Positions 1 to 15,867 of a stretch of DNA of 64,000 nt are shown one piece after another (position 1 is the first letter of the stretch; every line of letters begins with the position of its first letter). The position numbers and the translations under genes are program-made. The stretch is from Subtercola boreus (GTDB lineage: Bacteria; Actinomycetota; Actinomycetes; Actinomycetales; Microbacteriaceae), in contig NZ_VFOO01000001.1 in assembly GCF_006716115.1 (NCBI RefSeq), positions 2,480,001-2,544,000 of the forward strand, given 5' to 3'. The notes under the pieces were generated by a model. It had not been told where the DNA came from. It worked only from the letters and a program-made list of their open reading frames with translations, and ran no database searches.

Positions 1-204
1 AGACCAGACCAGGTAGGCAAACCCGGCGACGAGCGCCGCGAAGGCGAGCAGGATGAGCGCGGGCGAGACGATCTCGTCGGCGTTCAGCGCCGTCAACACC
101 CCCGCGGAGAGCACCGCGACGCAGCCGACGGCCACCACGAAGATGCGCGCAGTTATCCCGCTGAGCGGATCGATCTCCTGGGCAGTCCCGCCCGACACGC
201 TCAT
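1..204 (-). CDS. Membrane protein, N-terminal fragment (runs off the window)
   Basis: Only the first 68 codons lie in the window; the gene continues past position 1. The ATG overlaps the stop of the upstream sensor kinase gene as ATGA, so the two are probably translationally coupled. The visible protein has a short cytosolic start followed by two hydrophobic stretches, at about residues 21-41 and 48-67, typical of a small integral membrane protein. No family motif is visible. It could be a sensor subunit or an unrelated membrane protein cotranscribed with the kinase. Confidence 0.6.
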   Translation of the reverse strand, partial: MSVSGGTAQEIDPLSGITARIFVVAVGCVAVLSAGVLTALNADEIVSPALILLAFAALVAGFAYLVWS

Positions 205-1403
205 CCGTCGGCGCCGCAGCGCGCCCGGGGAACGCTCATCAGCACAGCCGTGCCGTGCCCGGGGGTCGACCAGACACGGACGGCGCCGTCGATGTTCTCG
301 ATCCGGCGGCGGATGGATGACGCGGGAGTCTCCGGCGCTCCGCCTCGTTCCTGCGGGGCGAAGCCGCGCCCGGCGTCGGAGACGACGACGATGATGTTCT
401 CGCTTCCCGAAGCGACGGCCAGTTCGGCGACCGCCGTACCGGCGAATCGGCTGACATTGCCGAGCACCCGTTCGGCAGCAGTGAGGAGTTCACTCCTCAC
501 GCGCGGGTCGAGTTCGAGCAGCAGGCGCGGCTTCCCGCTGACGACGACGCGGAGGCCGCGATGTGCCGCGGTTCGGATGACCGAATCCAGTCCGGTGGCC
601 TTCAGCGCCTCGCTGTCGCCTGCTCCCCGGTTCATCACCTCGTCGACGAGGAGGCCGGGGTGGGCCAGAGAGGCGATGTCCTTCGCGAGGAAGGCCCGGT
701 GCTCGTCGATGAGCGGACCGACCGGGGACAGCTCCAGGGCCTGCAGGTCGTTCAGGATGGTGTCGTGCAGCACCGCCGACGCCTCCGCGGCGACCCGGCT
801 CCGTTCGGTGAGGCGTTCCTCGACCGCGGCAGCCTCCCGCATGGTCCCGACGCCTCGCGTGGCGCGGGCCCGCCCGTACCAGAGCGTCGCGAGCAACAGC
901 ACGATGCCGACCCAGATCGAGATGGAGGGCAGATCGAACGCGAACACCAGCCCGTTCATCCGGGTCGCCACCTGCACGGCCACGGAGGCGAGCACAAATC
1001 CCATGGTCGAACGCGCCAGGCTCGACGGAAGCGAACGCCCGGCCACCCCGACGACCGTCATCCCGATCTTCGGCATCGTGAACACGATGGCGTCTGAACG
1101 CCAGTCCGGACCGACCTCGGCCGATATATAGAAGGTGAAGAGGAAGAGGCCGATCCCGGCCACCAGCATCAACCCGAAGACCGCCCAGGGGTTCGAGACG
1201 AGCAGTGCGCAGGCGACCCCGAGACCCGCGACAGCGAGACCCGCGAGCGCCAGGGGGACGCCCTCCTGGGAGATCATCACACCGAAGGCGATGACGAGCA
1301 CAAGCGTGGCCACCAGGAAAACGCCGCTGACCCAGATCGCGGCCCGGCCGAGGGCACGGCTCGTCGCAGCACCTTCGACATCGGTGGGCAGAACGAGAGA
1401 CAT
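201..1403 (-). CDS. NarL/DesK-type membrane sensor histidine kinase
   Basis: Predicted 400-residue sensor kinase. The first 175 residues hold about six hydrophobic segments and no obvious extracellular domain. The dimerisation helix has the HisKA_3-type H box HDTILNDLQAL with the phospho-accepting His near residue 213. The ATPase domain shows an N-box-like ERVLGNVSRFA, a G1 box DAGRGF and a G2 box GHGTAVL. Start chosen at 1403 because AAGGGA sits just upstream; the frame stays open to 1472. Kinases of this class pair with LuxR/NarL-type response regulators, and none is visible here. Its place at the edge of the EPS locus, with a CCCC-GAAT-GGGG palindrome about 30 bp upstream, suggests but does not prove a role in EPS control. 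Confidence 0.8.
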   Translation of the reverse strand: MSLVLPTDVEGAATSRALGRAAIWVSGVFLVATLVLVIAFGVMISQEGVPLALAGLAVAGLGVACALLVSNPWAVFGLMLVAGIGLFLFTFYISAEVGPDWRSDAIVFTMPKIGMTVVGVAGRSLPSSLARSTMGFVLASVAVQVATRMNGLVFAFDLPSISIWVGIVLLLATLWYGRARATRGVGTMREAAAVEERLTERSRVAAEASAVLHDTILNDLQALELSPVGPLIDEHRAFLAKDIASLAHPGLLVDEVMNRGAGDSEALKATGLDSVIRTAAHRGLRVVVSGKPRLLLELDPRVRSELLTAAERVLGNVSRFAGTAVAELAVASGSENIIVVVSDAGRGFAPQERGGAPETPASSIRRRIENIDGAVRVWSTPGHGTAVLMSVPRARCGADG

Positions 1404-1431: not shown

Positions 1432-1443
1432 CCCCGAATGGGG
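1432..1443. promoter_or_regulatory. Putative operator: CCCC-GAAT-GGGG palindrome
   Basis: A palindrome of four C, GAAT and four G lies between the divergent sensor kinase (start 1403) and PAP2 phosphatase (start 1508). It matches sites at 4388, 8808-8865 and 15642-15684, all intergenic within the EPS locus. Function as a regulator site is inferred from recurrence and position only. Confidence 0.4.
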
Positions 1444-4278: not shown

Positions 4279-4387
4279 GAGCTACGCTCCCTGTCAGCAG
4301 ATGGACGATCGCGTTGTGACCGGCACCCCCCGAGAACGACGTTATCGGCAGCTTATGGACGGTCGTTCGGGTGCTGGCCGGGCCTAG

Positions 4388-4398
4388 CCCGAATGAGT
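4388..4398. promoter_or_regulatory. Putative operator: CCC-GAAT-GAGT site
   Basis: Within the 207-bp divergent promoter region between the glycosyltransferase and tyrosine kinase genes. The core CCCGAATGAGT is shared with 15674-15684 and is a degenerate form of the CCCC-GAAT-GGGG palindrome at 1432. Both the locus-wide recurrence and the promoter position point to a binding site. No protein can be named. Confidence 0.35.
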
Positions 4399-4485
4399 TA
4401 ATCAGTGCCTGTGTGCCGCTGGCGGGCTGGCGATTCTAGGACATACTGGTACAAATTCGAGGGGTTGCAAGGGAGGCGGAGACGC

Positions 4486-5985
4486 ATGCAGCTGCAAGAC
4501 ATACTGAGAGTGCTTCAGCGATCATGGATCCTCATCGTCGGACTGACCGTCCTCGGCCTGCTCGCCGCCGGAGCCGCACTCGCCGTCACCGCCCCGCAGT
4601 ACCAGTCGACGTCGAGGCTCTTCGTCTCCACCCAGGCCACGGACAACGCGTCGAACGCGCTTCAGGGCAGCACGTACACGCAGAACCGGATGATCTCGTA
4701 CTCCCACCTCGTCGTGCAGCCCATCGTGCTCGACCCGGTGATCGCCGCCCTCGGCCTCGACCTGACGGCCGACCAGCTGGCCTCCCACGTGAGTGCCGAC
4801 GTCATCACCGACAGCCTCATCCTCGAGGTGACCGTCACCGAACCCTCGGCCCAGCAGTCCGCCGACATCGCCAACGCCATCGCGACCCAGCTCGTCACCA
4901 CTATCACGACCCAGATCGAAGACCCGGGAGACGGCACCAAGCCTCTCATCGCCGTCAGCATCATCGCGGATGCCTCGGTCGCCACGAGCCCGACGAGCCC
5001 TCTTCCCTGGCTGTACCTTCTTGTCGGCGGGGTCGGTGGGCTGCTGCTCTCGGTCGGCCTCGCGTTCCTGATCGCCGGCTTCGACAACCGTGTGCGGAGC
5101 ATCGACGATCTCAAGCGCCTGACCGACCTGCCGGTTCTCGGGCACTTCCCGCGCCAGAACACCGCCCGCGAGAAGCCGCTCCTCCTCGCCGATGACATGA
5201 TGAGCCAGCGCGCGGAATCGTTCAGAGCACTGCGGACGAACCTGCAGTACTTCGATCTGGCCACCACCAACCAGGTGCTGCTCTTCACCTCGTCCATCCC
5301 CGGCGAAGGCAAGACGACGACCTCATTGAACCTCGCCATCACGCTGGCGCAGACCGGCAAGCGGGTCATCTACATCGAATGCGACCTCCGTCGCCCGAAG
5401 TCGGCGAAGTACCTCAACATCGAGGGCGCCGTCGGCCTCTCCGACGTGCTGGTCTCGCGAGTCGCGCTCGACGACGTGCTCCAGGCTGGCGTCGTCGAGA
5501 CGCTGACGATCCTTCCGGCGGGGTCGCTGCCCCCGAACCCCAGCGAACTGCTCGGTTCAGAACAGTTCGCATCCCTCCTGTCCTCGATGCGTCTTCTCTA
5601 CGACTACGTGATCCTCGATGCGCCACCGCTCCTCGCGGTCACCGATGCGGCCATCCTCAGCCGGGAGAGCGACGGGGTGATCGTCGTCGTGGGAACCTCG
5701 CTGGTGAATCGCCAGCAGGTCGAGACGAGCATCGACATCCTCACCCAGGTCGACGCACACGTGCTGGGCGTCGCCGCGAACTTCCTTCCTCGGCGCGGCG
5801 TGGACGCGTACTCCTACTACACCTACGGTTACGTCGCGCTCTCCGCCGTCAGGGATGCACGGGTCCCGGGTGCCGCCGATCGGTCGGATGACCCGTCTGC
5901 CGCTCCTGCCGATGACCGGATCAGTGACGTGGCCCACGCAACCCGCCGCGCCGCCACCTCCGCCGAGAGACTGACCCGCCGGTGA
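4486..5985 (+). CDS. Polysaccharide co-polymerase / tyrosine autokinase (Wzc-like BY-kinase)
   Basis: This 499-residue protein fuses a Wzz-type chain-length domain to a BY-kinase. Transmembrane helices lie at about 14-35 and 175-198, with the periplasm-type loop between them. The cytosolic kinase has Walker A IPGEGKTTTS (271-280), Walker A' IECDLRRPK (about 297-305) and Walker B VILDAPP. The C terminus carries a tyrosine cluster (YSYYTYGY), the usual autophosphorylation site. Start 4486 follows a GGGAGG ribosome-binding site; an in-frame extension to 4405 lacks one. Together with the phosphatase at 1931-3100 it forms the expected phosphorylation switch controlling EPS polymer length and export. 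The stop overlaps the GTG of the next gene. Confidence 0.92.
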   Translation: MQLQDILRVLQRSWILIVGLTVLGLLAAGAALAVTAPQYQSTSRLFVSTQATDNASNALQGSTYTQNRMISYSHLVVQPIVLDPVIAALGLDLTADQLASHVSADVITDSLILEVTVTEPSAQQSADIANAIATQLVTTITTQIEDPGDGTKPLIAVSIIADASVATSPTSPLPWLYLLVGGVGGLLLSVGLAFLIAGFDNRVRSIDDLKRLTDLPVLGHFPRQNTAREKPLLLADDMMSQRAESFRALRTNLQYFDLATTNQVLLFTSSIPGEGKTTTSLNLAITLAQTGKRVIYIECDLRRPKSAKYLNIEGAVGLSDVLVSRVALDDVLQAGVVETLTILPAGSLPPNPSELLGSEQFASLLSSMRLLYDYVILDAPPLLAVTDAAILSRESDGVIVVVGTSLVNRQQVETSIDILTQVDAHVLGVAANFLPRRGVDAYSYYTYGYVALSAVRDARVPGAADRSDDPSAAPADDRISDVAHATRRAATSAERLTRR

Positions 5986-6543: not shown

Positions 6544-7644
6544 ATGCTTGTGCCCGAAACTGCAGACATCTCCGGTGTGACCCTCGTCTACGTCGCTCCC
6601 CGCACCGGCACGAGCGGGGTGAGCGACTACGCCGACGACCTTCTGGCCATCGCCCGCGAACGGATGCTCCGGGTGGTCGAAGTACGCCACGGCGGCTCGG
6701 GCCAGGACGGTGTGCTCGACGTGCTGCGGGGGCGGCGAAGCATCCGGCGTGCCCTCTCGTCGGCGACCGGCCCCGTTGTGCTGCACACCGAGCAGAGCGG
6801 CGGTGTACTTCTCCCGTTCTGGGGGCTCCTCGGCATGAAGCGGGCCACCGTGCGGAGTTCCACCGTGCATGATGCGCCGCTCGGCGTCTGGCTGCCGTTC
6901 CGTACCCGGCTGGCGAGCCGGTCGAGGCTCGTCGTGCACGCCCTGCACTACCCGATCATGCCGCTCCTGGAGAGATTCGAACGCCGTGCCCTGCGACGGG
7001 TGGACCTGTTCGCCCTGACCGCCTCGGGCGCGGTGGAGACGGGCCGCATACTCGGCCACGACACGGTTCACCGCGGATTCCTCCCCGTACCTGAACGGCC
7101 GGAACTCCCCGCCCCCGTCGATCGCCCGCGGGCAGTCGGGCTCTTCGGGTACGTCTACCGCGGAAAGGGTTTCGACAGCCTCGTGCACCTGCGTTCGCGC
7201 CTCGATCCGGGCATCGCGATCCGGGTCGCCGGCCGGGGCACGGATGCCCTGCCTCCCGTCGACGGAGTGGACCTGCTCGGCGGAGTCGAGGGCGCTGACG
7301 AGGATGCGTTCTTCGCGAGCATCCAGATCATGATCGTGCCCTACGGCAAACGGAGTTCCTACGGGCCCGAGACGCACGTGGCGTCGAGCGCCATCGCGCG
7401 CGCGCTGGCCTATCAGACCCCGGTGGTCGCCCTGAAGTACCGCGGGATCGACGACGAGGCCCTGATCGTCGACGGCGACATCGACGACCTGGCCGACGCG
7501 GTCAGCGCACTGCTCGGTGACGAGTCCGCACTTCGGGAGCAGTCGACGCATGCGCGGGAACTGCGGGCGCGATTGACGACGGAGAATGCGTTCGAGCGAT
7601 ACGCCGAGGCGTGGCACGCGGCGATCTCCGGCGCGGCAGCCTGA
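6544..7644 (+). CDS. Glycosyltransferase, GT-B fold
   Basis: The 366-residue product has the features of a GT4-like transferase: an N-terminal VYVAPRTGTSGVSDYADDL loop and a C-terminal donor site around VGLFGYVYRGKGF and SSAIARALAYQTPVVALKYRG. It follows the acyltransferase after 25 bp and is probably cotranscribed with it. It is predicted to act on the cytoplasmic lipid-linked repeat unit. Its last 143 bp are antisense to the end of the convergent acyltransferase gene. The sugar specificity cannot be assigned. Confidence 0.82.
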   Translation: MLVPETADISGVTLVYVAPRTGTSGVSDYADDLLAIARERMLRVVEVRHGGSGQDGVLDVLRGRRSIRRALSSATGPVVLHTEQSGGVLLPFWGLLGMKRATVRSSTVHDAPLGVWLPFRTRLASRSRLVVHALHYPIMPLLERFERRALRRVDLFALTASGAVETGRILGHDTVHRGFLPVPERPELPAPVDRPRAVGLFGYVYRGKGFDSLVHLRSRLDPGIAIRVAGRGTDALPPVDGVDLLGGVEGADEDAFFASIQIMIVPYGKRSSYGPETHVASSAIARALAYQTPVVALKYRGIDDEALIVDGDIDDLADAVSALLGDESALREQSTHARELRARLTTENAFERYAEAWHAAISGAAA

Positions 7645-8731
7645 CGGCGCGGAGACCCCTGCGGGCGGGCTCTTCGACGATGTAGTAGGTTGCCGCACCG
7701 AGCCCGACGACACCGATGAGGAGTCCGGTGAGCACGGCGAGCCGAACGACGATCGAGCCCGCGGCGAGCGTCTCGATCGGAATCACCTTCACCGCGACCG
7801 TGAACAGCATGAAGTGCGTCATGTAGACAGAGAACGAGATCTTGCCGCCCCAGACGGGCACTCTGCCGGCCATGAACCGGCTGATCGGCCCCGTTCCCCC
7901 CGCGAGCCCGAGGAGGATGAGGAGCAGGAAGGGAAGGGCGAAGGCGGGGAACACGATGACCGTGTCCTGCGGCGCGAGGTAGGCGGCCACGACGACACCC
8001 ACCACACCGACGACGACCAGGAGGTCGAACTTCGGGCTCTGCTTCAGGGCACCCAGCGAACGCCAGAGCCAGTAGGCAAGGCAGCCCGCGAGGAAACCGA
8101 CGATGATGCGCAGCCAGATCAGCACGTAGCCCGCCCAGTAGACCCACGACTCCGCGCTGTTGACGACGAGCGGAATCGTGATCATGCCGACGGCGAGAAC
8201 CACCACGATCAGCCCGACCGTCACCGCCCGTGACCGGATGCGCCAGATCGCCCGGGCGATCAGAGGGAATGCCAGGTAGGCCGCAGCCTCCGCGCAGATC
8301 GACCACGCCGGATTGTTCAGAGCGAAGGCGGGAGGGATCGACTGCAGCATCAGCACATTCATCACCACGTTGAGCGGGGTGTACTGCCCGTTGGTGTTGA
8401 GATTGAGGCCGACGGCCGCCGCTCCGATCACCAGTGCGACGAAGACGATCACGGTGAACAGGTGCACGGGGTAGATCCGGGCGAAACGCAGGAAGAGGAA
8501 GCTGCGGACGGCGCCCGGTGCGGGCTTCCGCAGCTTGTCCATGTACGTGTACGAGATGATGAAGCCGCTCAGCATGAAGAAGAAGTCCACACCGAGGTTA
8601 CCGGCATTCAGCAGCGGGACGAACGGAGCGACATTCGGGAAGAGCGGTGTGAAGAGCTCGTACAGGTGGAACAGCACCACCCAGGCTGCGGCGAAAGCAC
8701 GCACGCCAGTCAGGCTTGCTATCACTCTCAC
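7502..8731 (-). CDS. Acyltransferase family 3 (membrane O-acyltransferase)
   Basis: This 409-residue protein begins with the AT3 motif ASLTGVRAFAAAWVVLFHLY (catalytic His region), followed by FFFMLSGFIISY, RFARIYPVHLF and about ten transmembrane helices. These proteins acylate sugars of exported polysaccharide or lipid. The start is a GTG at 8731 preceded by GGGGAG; although the frame remains open for about 1.7 kb upstream, that part is antisense to the flippase. The AT3 core ends near residue 358 (EEPARRG). The last 47 or so residues are Arg/Pro/Ala-rich and antisense to the glycosyltransferase, so they may be run-on. Confidence 0.88.
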   Translation of the reverse strand: MRVIASLTGVRAFAAAWVVLFHLYELFTPLFPNVAPFVPLLNAGNLGVDFFFMLSGFIISYTYMDKLRKPAPGAVRSFLFLRFARIYPVHLFTVIVFVALVIGAAAVGLNLNTNGQYTPLNVVMNVLMLQSIPPAFALNNPAWSICAEAAAYLAFPLIARAIWRIRSRAVTVGLIVVVLAVGMITIPLVVNSAESWVYWAGYVLIWLRIIVGFLAGCLAYWLWRSLGALKQSPKFDLLVVVGVVGVVVAAYLAPQDTVIVFPAFALPFLLLILLGLAGGTGPISRFMAGRVPVWGGKISFSVYMTHFMLFTVAVKVIPIETLAAGSIVVRLAVLTGLLIGVVGLGAATYYIVEEPARRGLRAVRLPRRRSPRATPRRIARTHSPSSIAPAVPAHASTAPEVRTRHRAVR

Positions 8732-8807
8732 GCCGTACTCCCCACTCACCCCCCGAGGTTCGGTAGACCCGAAGGCCACGCTAACCGGCAGGGGGCCTGT
8801 CCGAACG

Positions 8808-8865
8808 CCCCAGTAGGGGGTTCCCCTGTTGGGGTCTCCCCCGGAGGGGGGGTCACCCTTTTGGG
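8808..8865. promoter_or_regulatory. Array of four CCCC-N4-GGGG palindromes
   Basis: The 264-bp gap between the divergent acyltransferase (8731) and flippase (8996) genes holds four consecutive palindromes: CCCC-AGTA-GGGG (8808-8819), CCCC-TGTT-GGGG (8823-8834), CCCC-GGAG-GGGG (8839-8850) and CCC-TTTT-GGG (8856-8865). Centres are spaced 15, 16 and 16 bp apart, about one and a half helical turns. The spacer bases differ while the arms are kept, as expected for protein binding sites rather than simple repeats. Function is inferred. Confidence 0.5.
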
Positions 8866-8995
8866 TCAATTCCAGACCGGGCGGGACACCCTCTCCGGCT
8901 AGGATGATCGTCACCCTGCAGGTTCTCCGCCGCACCCGCATTCCCTGTGCGGTAGCCGGTTCAGAACCCGTCGCCCGACCCCGAAACGGATTGAG

Positions 8996-10273
8996 ATGCT
9001 CCGTCACTTCGCTGGCCTCGGCGCAGCAGGAAGCTGGATGATCGCCGGTCGCGGTGTGGGCTTCCTCTGGACCATCCTCCTGCTCAGCGCCCTCGGGCTC
9101 GGCGACTACGGCATCTACGCGACGGCCTGTGCGTTCGCGGCGATCATCTCGGCACCGCTCGAGAACGTGTTCGTCGTGCGGAGCGTTCGCGTCGACACCG
9201 CCGAGTACGAGCGCGAACGCTCCACCCGGTTGCTCCTCGGCGTGCTGCTGATCGTGGCGGGCGTCGTGCTCTACCCGTTCACCCTCACCCTCGCGTTCGC
9301 CCTGGTGTTCGCGGGCGGCGAGATGGTGTTCAACGCCTACAAGAGCCTCCCGCTCCGGAACGGCCAGCCCGCTGCGGTGATGAGACTGGATGCCCTGCGG
9401 CAGTTCAGCTCGATCGGTGCCGCGACGATCTACCTCTTTGCCGCGGGCGAGTCGGCCACGCTTCCGGTGGCCCTGGCGCTCTACCTGGCGCCGTACGCGG
9501 TCGTGCTCGTGCTGTCGGCGGTGCGCTGCTGGGGAACCCTGCCCGCTGTCCCGGGTGGGCTCCGCGAGAACGTGCTGCTGCTCGGCGATGCGTTCATCAT
9601 CAGCCTCTACCTGCAGGGCGACATTGTGCTGCTGGGCATCCTGAGCTCTGACGAGACCGTCGGGGCCTACTCGGTCGCGTCGCAGATCGCCCTGGCCCTC
9701 TCCGTTCTCGGCCAGCTGTACGCCCAGAGCTTCAACGTGCGGCTCCGCGAGAGCCACGGCGATCCTGCGGCCGGGCCCAGGCCGAAGTTCCTCCTCGGCC
9801 TCGCCGCGTTCTTCGCGCTCGGTTCGTTCGTCGTCGGTGTGCTGCTCATCCTGGTCGGCTGGCACAGCGAGATCGGGGTCGTCCTCCTCGTGATGAGTCT
9901 GTTCGCCGGCCTCCGCACCATCGACAACGCGTGGACGACGGTGCTCTACATCCAGCACCGCGACGGCCCGAGGATCGCCCACGCCGGAATCGCGCTCGCG
10001 CTGAAGTTCGCCGGCATCCTGCTGTTGATCCTCGCCGCCGGCTGGCCCGCCGCCCTCGCTGCCGCCGTTGCAGCCGTGCTGGCCGAGGCGTACCTCTGCC
10101 TCCTGTACACCAGACTCGTGCACCGTCCCCTGCCTCAGCGGGACACAATTGACGAAGGGGAGGCGATGAGCGTGGAACTGACGACCACTGACGAGCTGGC
10201 GCCCGACCTGGTGACTCCCGACGCCCTCGCCCGCGAGATCGAGTCGCCCGACAGCACGAAGGAACCCCGGTGA
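8996..10273 (+). CDS. Wzx-like polysaccharide flippase
   Basis: This 425-residue protein has about 12 hydrophobic segments and the overall pattern of the MATE/Wzx (polysaccharide transport) superfamily, starting RHFAGLGAAGSWMIAGRGVG. It is predicted to flip the undecaprenyl-linked EPS repeat unit across the membrane. A polar 45-residue acidic tail follows the last helix. It is the first gene of a four-gene run (flippase, glycosyltransferase, polymerase, acyltransferase) in which every junction overlaps by 1-4 nt, so it is an operon. The palindrome array at 8808-8865 lies 130 bp upstream. Confidence 0.82.
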   Translation: MLRHFAGLGAAGSWMIAGRGVGFLWTILLLSALGLGDYGIYATACAFAAIISAPLENVFVVRSVRVDTAEYERERSTRLLLGVLLIVAGVVLYPFTLTLAFALVFAGGEMVFNAYKSLPLRNGQPAAVMRLDALRQFSSIGAATIYLFAAGESATLPVALALYLAPYAVVLVLSAVRCWGTLPAVPGGLRENVLLLGDAFIISLYLQGDIVLLGILSSDETVGAYSVASQIALALSVLGQLYAQSFNVRLRESHGDPAAGPRPKFLLGLAAFFALGSFVVGVLLILVGWHSEIGVVLLVMSLFAGLRTIDNAWTTVLYIQHRDGPRIAHAGIALALKFAGILLLILAAGWPAALAAAVAAVLAEAYLCLLYTRLVHRPLPQRDTIDEGEAMSVELTTTDELAPDLVTPDALAREIESPDSTKEPR

Positions 10274-12788: not shown

Positions 12789-14053
12789 GCGAACAACGAC
12801 TGATGCCCGAGGGCAGCACGCTGCCCAGACGCTTCATCGGCCTCGACGGCCTGCGCGGCGTGCTCGCGATCTGCGTCGTCCTCGTGCACGCCACCGCCCA
12901 GTTCAACCCCCAGGTACTGAACACCCTGCACATCGAGATCCTCGGCCAGGCGATCGTGGTCTTCTTCGTGCTGTCGGGCGTGCTGATCTACTGGCCGTTC
13001 CTGAACGCGATCCTGGATGGCCGGCCGCTGCCCTCGATCGGCAGGTACGCACGGGCGCGGGTCTTCCGGGTCTATCCGGCCTACGTCGTCGCATTTTTCG
13101 TCGCGAACTTCGCCCTCGGAGCCGTCTTCGTACTGAACGCGATGACGACGGTGCACTCGGGCAACGACAACGGCACAGGCACCATCACAAACCCCTGGTC
13201 GGTACTCGCGCACATCACCCTGGTCCAGAACTTCATCCCGGGCGAGCTGCAGACCGGGCTGAGCGCGTCATGGACGCTGACGAGCGAGCTCACCTTCTAC
13301 CTGCTGCTGCCGTTCCTCTGCATCGGAGCGGCCAGCCTCGCCCGCCGACTGAAGATCAACCGCGTGCTCGCCGTCGCCCTGCCCGGAATCGTGCTGATCG
13401 TGATCGGCGTCTCGTCGCACATCATCTCTGCGCTCTGGCTCCACCAGAGCGGCATCTCGCTGCTCGACTCGGAGTGGGGACCGACCTGGCAGGCGGTCTT
13501 CACGCGCAGCTTCTTCAGCTGGGCCGACAACTTCGGCTGGGGAATGCTGGTCGGCGTCGCCGTGTCGGTCTGGTACCGCCGCGGAGGTTTCCGGTTCGGC
13601 CGGCTCTCCGTGCGCACGGTGGCCTGGATCCTCATCCCCGTCGGCCTCGTCACCTCGGGCGTCAGCTTCCTCCGCTTCCCCTCGTTCATCGGAATCTTCT
13701 TCGCGATCTTCAGCGCCGGGCTCGTGCTGCTGCTGATGATCCCTATGAAGAACGGCAAGATCTGGGCGCTCTCGCGCATCCTCGACAACCGGGTGCTGTT
13801 CTGGCTCGGAACCATCTCGCTCAGCCTCTATGTCTGGCACTTCCCGGTGATCATCGTGCTCTACCGGCTCGGCTGGATCGCGGGTGACGACTGGCTCGGG
13901 TGGGCCTGGAACACGGTGCTCGTCTTCGCCGTAGCCGTCGCCATCGCCTCGCTCAGCTACCGGTTCGTCGAACTGCCGGCCATCCGCTCGCTCCGCACGA
14001 AGAAGAAGCCTGCCAGCAGCGATCGGGCGGCTGTCAATACCTCGTCACGGTGA
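12785..14053 (+). CDS. Acyltransferase family 3 (membrane O-acyltransferase)
   Basis: This 422-residue AT3 enzyme starts with RFIGLDGLRGVLAICVVLVH, containing the conserved His of the family, then VVFFVLSGVLIYWPF and RARVFRVYPAYVV, with about ten transmembrane helices. It closes with LSLYVWHFPVIIV and FVELPAIRS, standard AT3 C-terminal motifs. The ATG overlaps the polymerase stop (ATGA). This is the second AT3 gene of the locus, so the polysaccharide probably carries more than one acyl group. It ends with a 20-bp convergent overlap with the glycoside hydrolase gene. Confidence 0.9.
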   Translation: MSEQRLMPEGSTLPRRFIGLDGLRGVLAICVVLVHATAQFNPQVLNTLHIEILGQAIVVFFVLSGVLIYWPFLNAILDGRPLPSIGRYARARVFRVYPAYVVAFFVANFALGAVFVLNAMTTVHSGNDNGTGTITNPWSVLAHITLVQNFIPGELQTGLSASWTLTSELTFYLLLPFLCIGAASLARRLKINRVLAVALPGIVLIVIGVSSHIISALWLHQSGISLLDSEWGPTWQAVFTRSFFSWADNFGWGMLVGVAVSVWYRRGGFRFGRLSVRTVAWILIPVGLVTSGVSFLRFPSFIGIFFAIFSAGLVLLLMIPMKNGKIWALSRILDNRVLFWLGTISLSLYVWHFPVIIVLYRLGWIAGDDWLGWAWNTVLVFAVAVAIASLSYRFVELPAIRSLRTKKKPASSDRAAVNTSSR

Positions 14054-15584
14054 CGACTCCGGTCGTGGCCGACCAGACGATTCGACCGTGCACGAAGTCG
14101 TTCGCCCGGCTCCCGTCGGAGGCGAAAGTGTACTCGTCGGTCTTCGCCGCCCCGAGAGCCGACGTCCATTTGGCAAGGATGACGCCTGCGACGGCGTGCG
14201 CCCCCGTGGCAGCCGTGTAGAAGATGCGGAACCCACCTGCCCTGTCGTAGTCCTGGTAGGTGTTGGCGAAGGCGCTCTTCGGCACGAAGTGGTAGAGCCG
14301 GGCCAGCGTCGCAACAGCCGGTGGCGAGCTGAACCAGCCGTTCGGAGTCTGGTAGCGACTGCCGTTCTCGCATTCCTGTACAGCTCCGGTTCCCATCGCG
14401 TAACTGACCGACACGACGGCACCGAGTGCAGGATCGGCATTGTTCTTGAAGGCCGTTCCGCGGGTGCTGAGCGGAAGGCCAGACGCCTGGAGCCGTTTCA
14501 CGGTCGCCAACGACTTCTTCGCGACGAACGTCGACGAGACCACACCGTAGGTCTCGTTCGAGTTGTCGGTGACCGTGAAGATGTGGAACGGCCCGGCGTA
14601 CGAGACCTCGCCCCACTGCACGAGAGAGTTGTTGATCAGGGCGGCCTGCATCGTCTCCGAGACTCCGCCCGAGCCGGTCGGGGCGCCGTACTCGGTGATC
14701 CAGATCTTCTTCGACCCGTCACCGTTGGCCTTCATGACGGCGTGCAGTTCGATCATCCGTCGGGCCGGGGTGTTGTCCCAGAGAGTCGCGGCCGACAGCG
14801 AGTGCGTGTAGTCGTAGGGGTGGAAGGAGAAGGCGTCGAACGATCCCGCGACGCCTTCCGCATACATGGCGGTGATGAACCGGATCGGGTTCATCTGGCC
14901 GTCGACGTCGGCGGCCGGGCCGAGCGCTCCAGCGATGACCGTCGCAGCCGGATCCGCGGCCTTGATCGCGGGGTAGGCCGCCTTCACCATCGTGGCGTAG
15001 AAGGTGGGATCGGGGTCGGGTGCGAAATAGTCCCGGGCGTTCGGTTCGTTCCAGATCTCGTAGGCCGGGATCCTGCCCTTGTAACGCTTCGCCACTGCGC
15101 CGGCGAAGGTGGCGTAGAGCGCCGCCGTCTTCGGTCGCATCGTGCCGCCCGCGTTGCCGCCGTTCAGTGACGCCCAGGGCGGGCAGGTGGTGATGATGGC
15201 AAGGATCTTGAGGCTCCGCGCCCTCGCCTCCGTGACCGCATAGTCGAAGATGCCCCAGCTGAACGTCGTCGCGGTGGGCTGGGCGAGCACCCACATGATG
15301 TCGAAGCGAACGAGGGTTCCGCCGGACGAGACGATCGTGTCGAGGGTCTTCGCGATGTTCGCGCGGGTCTCGAAGAGGAGGGAGGAACCGGTCGAGTAGC
15401 CCACAGGGAAGGGCGCAGAGCGCGCGACGGCCGCATGCACTCCGGCAGCTGCGGGCGCCGCACCGGACCGGGCGGGGAGCGTGGCAGCGACCGCCGTGCC
15501 GCCGACAGCGGCCTGTGCCGCCACGACGGCCGTGCCCGCCGCCGCGCCCGCAAGGAGTTGCCTGCGTGACAGGTGGGGTGACAT
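14034..15584 (-). CDS. Tat-exported glycoside hydrolase (GH39/GH5-like, clan A)
   Basis: Predicted 516-residue secreted enzyme. The N terminus is a twin-arginine signal (SRRQLLAG at residues 6-13, followed by an Ala-rich hydrophobic stretch, cleavage near residue 33). The catalytic TIM barrel spans about 55-400, with YEIWNEPN giving the acid/base Glu180 and WITEYGAP giving the nucleophile Glu298, spaced as in clan GH-A. Residues 400-516 form a separate beta-rich domain of unknown type. Start 15584 gives a proper signal peptide; the open frame to 15737 does not. Sitting at the end of the EPS locus, it may trim or release the polysaccharide; the substrate is not known. The acid/base and nucleophile positions fit GH39-, GH5- or GH30-like enzymes. 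Confidence 0.85.
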   Translation of the reverse strand: MSPHLSRRQLLAGAAAGTAVVAAQAAVGGTAVAATLPARSGAAPAAAGVHAAVARSAPFPVGYSTGSSLLFETRANIAKTLDTIVSSGGTLVRFDIMWVLAQPTATTFSWGIFDYAVTEARARSLKILAIITTCPPWASLNGGNAGGTMRPKTAALYATFAGAVAKRYKGRIPAYEIWNEPNARDYFAPDPDPTFYATMVKAAYPAIKAADPAATVIAGALGPAADVDGQMNPIRFITAMYAEGVAGSFDAFSFHPYDYTHSLSAATLWDNTPARRMIELHAVMKANGDGSKKIWITEYGAPTGSGGVSETMQAALINNSLVQWGEVSYAGPFHIFTVTDNSNETYGVVSSTFVAKKSLATVKRLQASGLPLSTRGTAFKNNADPALGAVVSVSYAMGTGAVQECENGSRYQTPNGWFSSPPAVATLARLYHFVPKSAFANTYQDYDRAGGFRIFYTAATGAHAVAGVILAKWTSALGAAKTDEYTFASDGSRANDFVHGRIVWSATTGVVTVTRY

Positions 15585-15627
15585 CCCGGTACCCCCCGTC
15601 GATCGACGACCGGTCGCTCTGACCGTC

Positions 15628-15867
15628 TCAGCGGAGGGTAACCCATTTGGGGGAACTGCCCTGGCCGGCGACCCCCGAATGAGTGAACCGGGCGCGACTC
15701 GCGCATCCCTTCGACAGGACCCCGGGCATCCGGTCACGGTGCGTACGGCCCTCCTCGAGGTCGGCGCGGTGAATCATCCGACCGAGGCAGAGAGCGACCG
15801 CGATCGACACCGCAGGCCAGAGCAGGAAGCCGGCGACAATGACGGCGGGGAGAAGGGAAGGAGGCAT
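15628..15867 (-). CDS. Possible small membrane protein (doubtful)
   Basis: A 79-codon frame with one convincing N-terminal transmembrane segment (residues 4-30, PSLLPAVIVAGFLLWPAVSI) followed by a basic tail. The ribosome-binding site is weak. Its second half overlaps the CCC-N4-GGG sites in front of the glycoside hydrolase, which argues that at least the 3' part is not coding. It may be a real short membrane protein whose natural stop was lost, or a chance frame. Confidence 0.35.
   Translation of the reverse strand: MPPSLLPAVIVAGFLLWPAVSIAVALCLGRMIHRADLEEGRTHRDRMPGVLSKGCASRARFTHSGVAGQGSSPKWVTLR
15642..15684. promoter_or_regulatory. Two CCC-N4-GGG-type sites upstream of the glycoside hydrolase
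   Basis: CCC-ATTT-GGGG (15642-15652) and CCCC-GAAT-GAGT (15673-15684) lie 58-100 bp upstream of the hydrolase start. The two centres are 32 bp apart, exactly twice the spacing of the 8808-8865 array. The first aligns with 8852-8873 at 17 of 22 positions. Regulatory function is inferred. Confidence 0.42.

Follow-up and report, generated by a model that had tools for sequence, protein, structure and literature searches.

An 18-bp palindrome, GTnACCC-N4-GGGTnAC, lies before several exopolysaccharide (EPS) genes in a Subtercola genome, and sequence comparison supports it well as their putative shared operator. The window analyzed is 64,000 nucleotides long (contig NZ_VFOO01000001.1, positions 2,480,001 to 2,544,000), and coordinates up to 64,000 refer to it. 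A first-pass annotation of the window had proposed a common EPS operator, written as CCCC-N4-GGGG. The idea of a shared operator was upheld by held-out ranking, by a matrix built only from other species, and by conservation between species. The element is ordinary in kind and the predicted operator is a real sequence signal; its earlier consensus and member list are corrected here. Because the palindrome precedes several EPS genes and is kept in relatives, it is most likely the landing site of one regulatory protein. The full model, in which EPS genes share this operator and a NarL/FixJ-type dimer is predicted to bind it, is in our view moderately probable.

A wider palindrome shared by EPS genes

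Matrix analysis indicated that conservation covers T-n-A-C-C-C and its mirror, with A/T at the dyad, but does not extend to the fourth C/G. The signal that is kept is this wider palindrome with its A/T-rich dyad. The earlier statement that the arms are kept while the spacer changes holds for the TnACCC arms, but the fourth C/G varies and the dyad is A/T-rich. Each site group was left out of the matrix in turn, and 63,983 window positions were ranked. The sites before the polysaccharide flippase gene (8852), the GH5-type glycosidase gene (15638 and 15670), and the Wzz-type chain-length regulator gene (wzz; 4384) had held-out ranks of 1, 2, 4, and 4. With both GH5 groups held out, 15638 and 15670 still ranked 2 and 4. 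An independent matrix was made from five wzz-family sites, all from other Subtercola genomes. It placed 8852, 15638, 15670, and 4384 at ranks 1, 2, 4, and 18 of 63,983, and at ranks 1, 2, 4, and 14 among the 642 window positions that match CCC-N4-GGG within one mismatch.

The rest of the window outside the EPS locus (47.5 kb) has no match at a score of at least 13. The claim that clear copies are absent outside the EPS locus is correct for this remaining DNA, but not for the genome, where exact copies occur at 140311, 576787, and 3933554 (the last in coding DNA). The exact form TNACCCN4GGGTNA is found five times in the 4.2 Mb genome; its contexts are a kinase/regulator divergent promoter, a permease promoter, a wzz paralogue, the flippase gene, and one site in coding DNA.

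Conservation and position of the predicted operators

The wzz and GH5 operators are kept in both other species with this locus, and the flippase operator is kept in one. Identical columns make up 26/32 of the GH5 operators compared to 39/121 outside them (p=6e-7), and 11/16 of the flippase site compared to 94/251 outside (p=0.014, Subtercola boreus comparison). For the wzz operator, the values are 13/16 and 112/189 (p=0.07). As annotated before, the related site CCCGAATGAG occurs at 4388, and a further pair of sites is spaced by 32 bp. This pair (18-mers at 15638 and 15670) precedes the GH5 gene.

For positional analysis, -10 boxes were picked by eye, and operator distances were counted from the transcript starts inferred from them. 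Operator distances to the inferred -10 boxes are kept across species. The flippase operator is 39 nt from its box, identical in S. boreus, and its center is at -51 in two species. The 32-bp spacing of the GH5 pair and the 38 nt from the distal site to the inferred -10 are common to three species, with centers at -50 (distal) and -18 (proximal) in all three. The wzz operator is centered at -61, -72, and -61 across species, with the S. boreus site 11 bp further away, about one helical turn. Before wzz paralogues, five sites are placed at +14 to +16. Thus placed, the flippase, GH5 distal, and wzz sites would fit activation on one helix face, and the GH5 proximal, kinase, and wzz-paralogue sites would fit repression.

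The palindrome CCCCGAATGGGG at 1432-1443, also reported in the first-pass annotation, is present and lies before the sensor kinase gene. This region is kept in three species (13/16 identical columns compared to 43/88, p=0.015), where the site center is at +18, +19.5, and +18, and the S. boreus version has a spacer of 5 nt. The site fits the matrix poorly (score 5.5, rank 33), and its membership among the operators is doubtful.

A paralogue of the GH5 gene (1384529-1386154, 55% identical) has CTCCCCCTAACGGGGGAT before it, with a score of 10.5. Judged by this match, it is possibly a further regulon member.

The bare pattern and the tandem array

The bare CCCC-N4-GGGG pattern has 8 exact matches in the window compared to 3.33 +/- 1.86 in shuffles; 8 or more were reached in 2/100 shuffles, so it is only mildly enriched. 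Further exact matches not listed in the first-pass annotation are at 1754 and 2679/2680. Genome-wide there is no enrichment (97 forward matches and 105 in the mirror control), yet tandem pairs of the pattern occur in this genome only in the array at 8808-8865 (2 overlapping matches; control 0). Comparison with base composition had been proposed earlier as a means of refuting the operator; when run, it ruled out the bare pattern as a signal across the genome and left the cluster standing. The control-level frequency could mean that the sites are accidents of base composition, hairpins, or terminators. The held-out ranks, conservation, and promoter position oppose such explanations, as do the third base, which varies without pairing in the wzz-paralogue sites (by eye), and the place of the array between divergent genes. 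They are very unlikely.

The four-palindrome array is real, with center spacings of 15, 15-16, and 16-17 bp. CCCC-N4-GGGG is exact at 8808-8819, 8823-8834, and 8838-8849 (the last also as 8839-8850), and the core of copy 4 is CCC-TTTT-GGG at 8856-8865. By its match to the matrix, copy 4 is the only clear member of the predicted operators among the four. In register, copies 1-3 score -2.1, -0.7, and -2.3, and their best scores within 3 bp are -0.5, 6.2 (copy 2, rank 25), and -2.3. They are not kept in S. boreus (14/40 identical columns compared to 91/227 outside, p=0.78), where the open reading frame listed before the flippase gene shares its direction. Copies 1-3 are possibly auxiliary or separate sites. 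In our model, copy 4 would be the true operator, and copies 1-3 would probably be weaker auxiliary sites, perhaps for the divergent acyltransferase gene. The inferred -10 of that gene (8778-8783) is about 30 bp from the center of copy 1 (about -42), counted by eye.

Copies 1-3 could also be a separate tandem CCCC-N4-GGGG element, through which a different factor would act on promoters of surface and secreted proteins across the family. An array precedes a membrane, secreted, or polysaccharide gene in 6/12 loci examined. Arrays in two genera (genomes G340 and G220, loci L214 and L221) are about 70 bp before DUF2510 genes that are 35% identical. Another array (G226) lies upstream of a Zn-peptidase gene and is flanked on the opposite side by a sugar transferase gene, and arrays in G113, G065 (C5), and G218 (C108:1367542) precede genes for large proteins that carry surface or enzyme domains. 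The other 6/12 loci differ: an array in G218 and its counterpart in G166 come after the end of a gene, an array in G159 comes after rpsO, and the remaining arrays are near unremarkable genes. Tandem arrays are also only modestly above the mirror control (20 vs. 11 of 199 genomes, with three G/C-run-rich genomes in both), and most matches in another scan (14/398 genomes) are near-identical units, one of them (L203) clearly coding. We rate a separate element as possible but not probable.

Candidate regulators

BldM is a NarL-type regulator. It is described as an atypical response regulator of Streptomyces whose Group I operator is a 16-bp palindrome, TCACcCgnncGgGTGA (PMC4125116). The BldM operator and the EPS operator resemble each other in TCACCC/GGGTGA-type arms and N4 center, but the EPS operator differs in its A/T-rich dyad and EPS-gene targets. 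Both BldM arms are exact at 140311, and all but one base (GTCA for GTGA) match at 8853; the wzz and GH5 sites differ from the published arms at 2 or more positions. The host genus, Subtercola, belongs to the non-sporulating Micrococcales. A review (PMC4255298) places WhiI almost only in actinomycetes with complex development and gives BldM a similar distribution, suggesting that simple actinobacteria lack a BldM orthologue.

Other known sites are similar in part. NarL sites are inverted repeats for a GerE-HTH dimer, as predicted for the EPS sites, but spacing and arms differ; NarL heptamers are TACYYMT. RamA sites of Corynebacterium have C4-5 and G4-6 runs 4-5 nt apart, resembling the EPS operator in C-run, short spacer, and G-run, and in the LuxR-type binder predicted for it, but with different targets. 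Text searches of PMC4847777 did not show this layout.

The exact copy at 140311, GTCACCCATCCGGGTGAC, sits between a divergent kinase gene and a NarL-type response regulator gene (140344). A GerE-HTH response regulator therefore has the site (GTCACCCATCCGGGTGAC) in its own promoter, consistent with a NarL/FixJ-type operator. Because the palindrome resembles the BldM Group I operator and has an exact copy in this divergent promoter, the likeliest binder of the EPS operators would be a NarL/LuxR-type regulator. CCC-N4-GGG occurs within 130 bp before the regulator gene in 6/26 homologues, among them all 4/4 that are at least 76% identical (counting the regulator's own copy). The 140344-type regulator was not found in three genomes with EPS sites, where the 829870-type paralogue is present.

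The first-pass annotation had suggested a LuxR/NarL-type partner of the kinase at 201-1403. The type is likely, but none of 23 GerE/LuxR matches in the genome adjoins this kinase gene; the nearest is at 2451174, about 29 kb away, and other regulator families were not searched. The kinase is related to the one divergent from the 140344 regulator (32% over 235 aa, E=8e-20). Its best NCBIfam match is MacS (E=1.8e-8, below cut-off).

In the proposed mechanism, a response regulator of the NarL/FixJ type (GerE-HTH) would bind the 18-bp operator as a dimer, with the regulator at 140344 or its paralogue at 829870 as the likeliest candidates. Once bound, it would activate at the flippase (about -51), wzz (about -61 or -72), and GH5 distal (about -50) sites, and would repress or tune at GH5 proximal (-18) and wzz paralogues (about +14 to +16). 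The EPS kinase may feed a signal into this regulator family.

A different NarL-type regulator (3986503-3987171) as the binder is unlikely. The EPS matrix gives the palindrome of this regulator a score of only 3.9, and the palindrome resembles the core of the CsoR site. A regulator of this type in S. boreus (L231) has a kinase-like gene and a second regulator gene about 1-2 kb away or nearer, so it is perhaps not an orphan everywhere. The gene is divergent from that of a GlsB-like membrane protein, as also seen at loci L161 and L225-L239, and CACCCCTAGGGGTG precedes regulators of this type in 12/15 loci examined.

CsoR-type metal-sensor operators had been offered as an alternative and are disfavored. 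They are likewise GC-rich palindromes, and this genome has three CsoR-family genes. A promoter site was seen at one of the three: the likely site TATACCCCTAGGGGGTAT, before gene C2:139699, has a CCCC-TA-GGGG core with TATA flanks, a layout unlike the EPS operator, and scores 0.1 with the EPS matrix. The EPS locus has no CsoR match, and no copper family is among the Pfam matches of 20 open reading frames tested. A CsoR origin is thus extremely improbable.

Features of the EPS locus

The predicted operators, inferred promoter elements, and genes are given in Table 1.

Table 1. Predicted regulatory sites and genes of the EPS locus (window coordinates; "." indicates no strand).
Feature	Position	Strand	Remarks
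Predicted operator, array copy 4, GTCACCCTTTTGGGTCAA	8852..8869	.	About -51 to inferred flippase start; exact TNACCCN4GGGTNA
Predicted operator before wzz/BY-kinase gene	4384..4401	.	About -61
Predicted GH5 proximal operator	15638..15655	.	Overlaps inferred -10, center about -18
Predicted GH5 distal operator	15670..15687	.	About -50; 32 bp from proximal operator
Weak palindrome before kinase gene	1432..1443	.	About +18 of inferred kinase transcript
Array copies 1-3, CCCC-N4-GGGG, 15-bp period	8808..8850	.	Possible auxiliary or separate sites
Inferred -10 of flippase gene, TAGGAT	8900..8905	+	Chosen by eye
Inferred -10 of wzz, CATACT	4442..4447	+	Chosen by eye
Inferred -10 of GH5 gene, TACCCT	15635..15640	-	Chosen by eye
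HPK7-like sensor kinase	201..1403	-	HATPase_c E=0.0039, below cut-off
Wzz-type chain-length regulator with tyrosine autokinase	4486..5985	+	Pfam Wzz, AAA_31; TIGR01007
Acyltransferase, divergent from flippase across array	7502..8728	-	Pfam Acyl_transf_3 5.7e-22
Polysaccharide flippase-like membrane protein	8996..10273	+	
GH5-type glycosidase with LGFP repeats	14034..15587	-	Pfam LGFP and Cellulase, searched as 14034-15626

Elsewhere in the genome, the LuxR-type gene at 2451174 (-) is divergent from another wzz gene at 2451919 (+), and GerE and wzz matches are similarly close in genomes G010 and G011. By eye, promoters of wzz paralogues (L041-L044, L047, L048, L053, L054, L062) have upstream GTAAC/T-N6-GAAAC-like boxes, which are presumably MtrA/GlnR-like.

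Significance

No regulator of exopolysaccharide control in the Microbacteriaceae is named among the literature matches listed. For this control, the current analysis provides a testable operator whose target sites are ranked, along with a few candidate regulators, and it links an operator type from Streptomyces development to matrix genes. A broader reading, quite unlikely at present, is that a BldM-like operator and NarL-type regulators run the extracellular matrix in non-sporulating Microbacteriaceae, with 15-bp-period arrays as a family-wide cooperative element of surface and matrix promoters. If true, BldM-type control of the cell surface would predate Streptomyces development.
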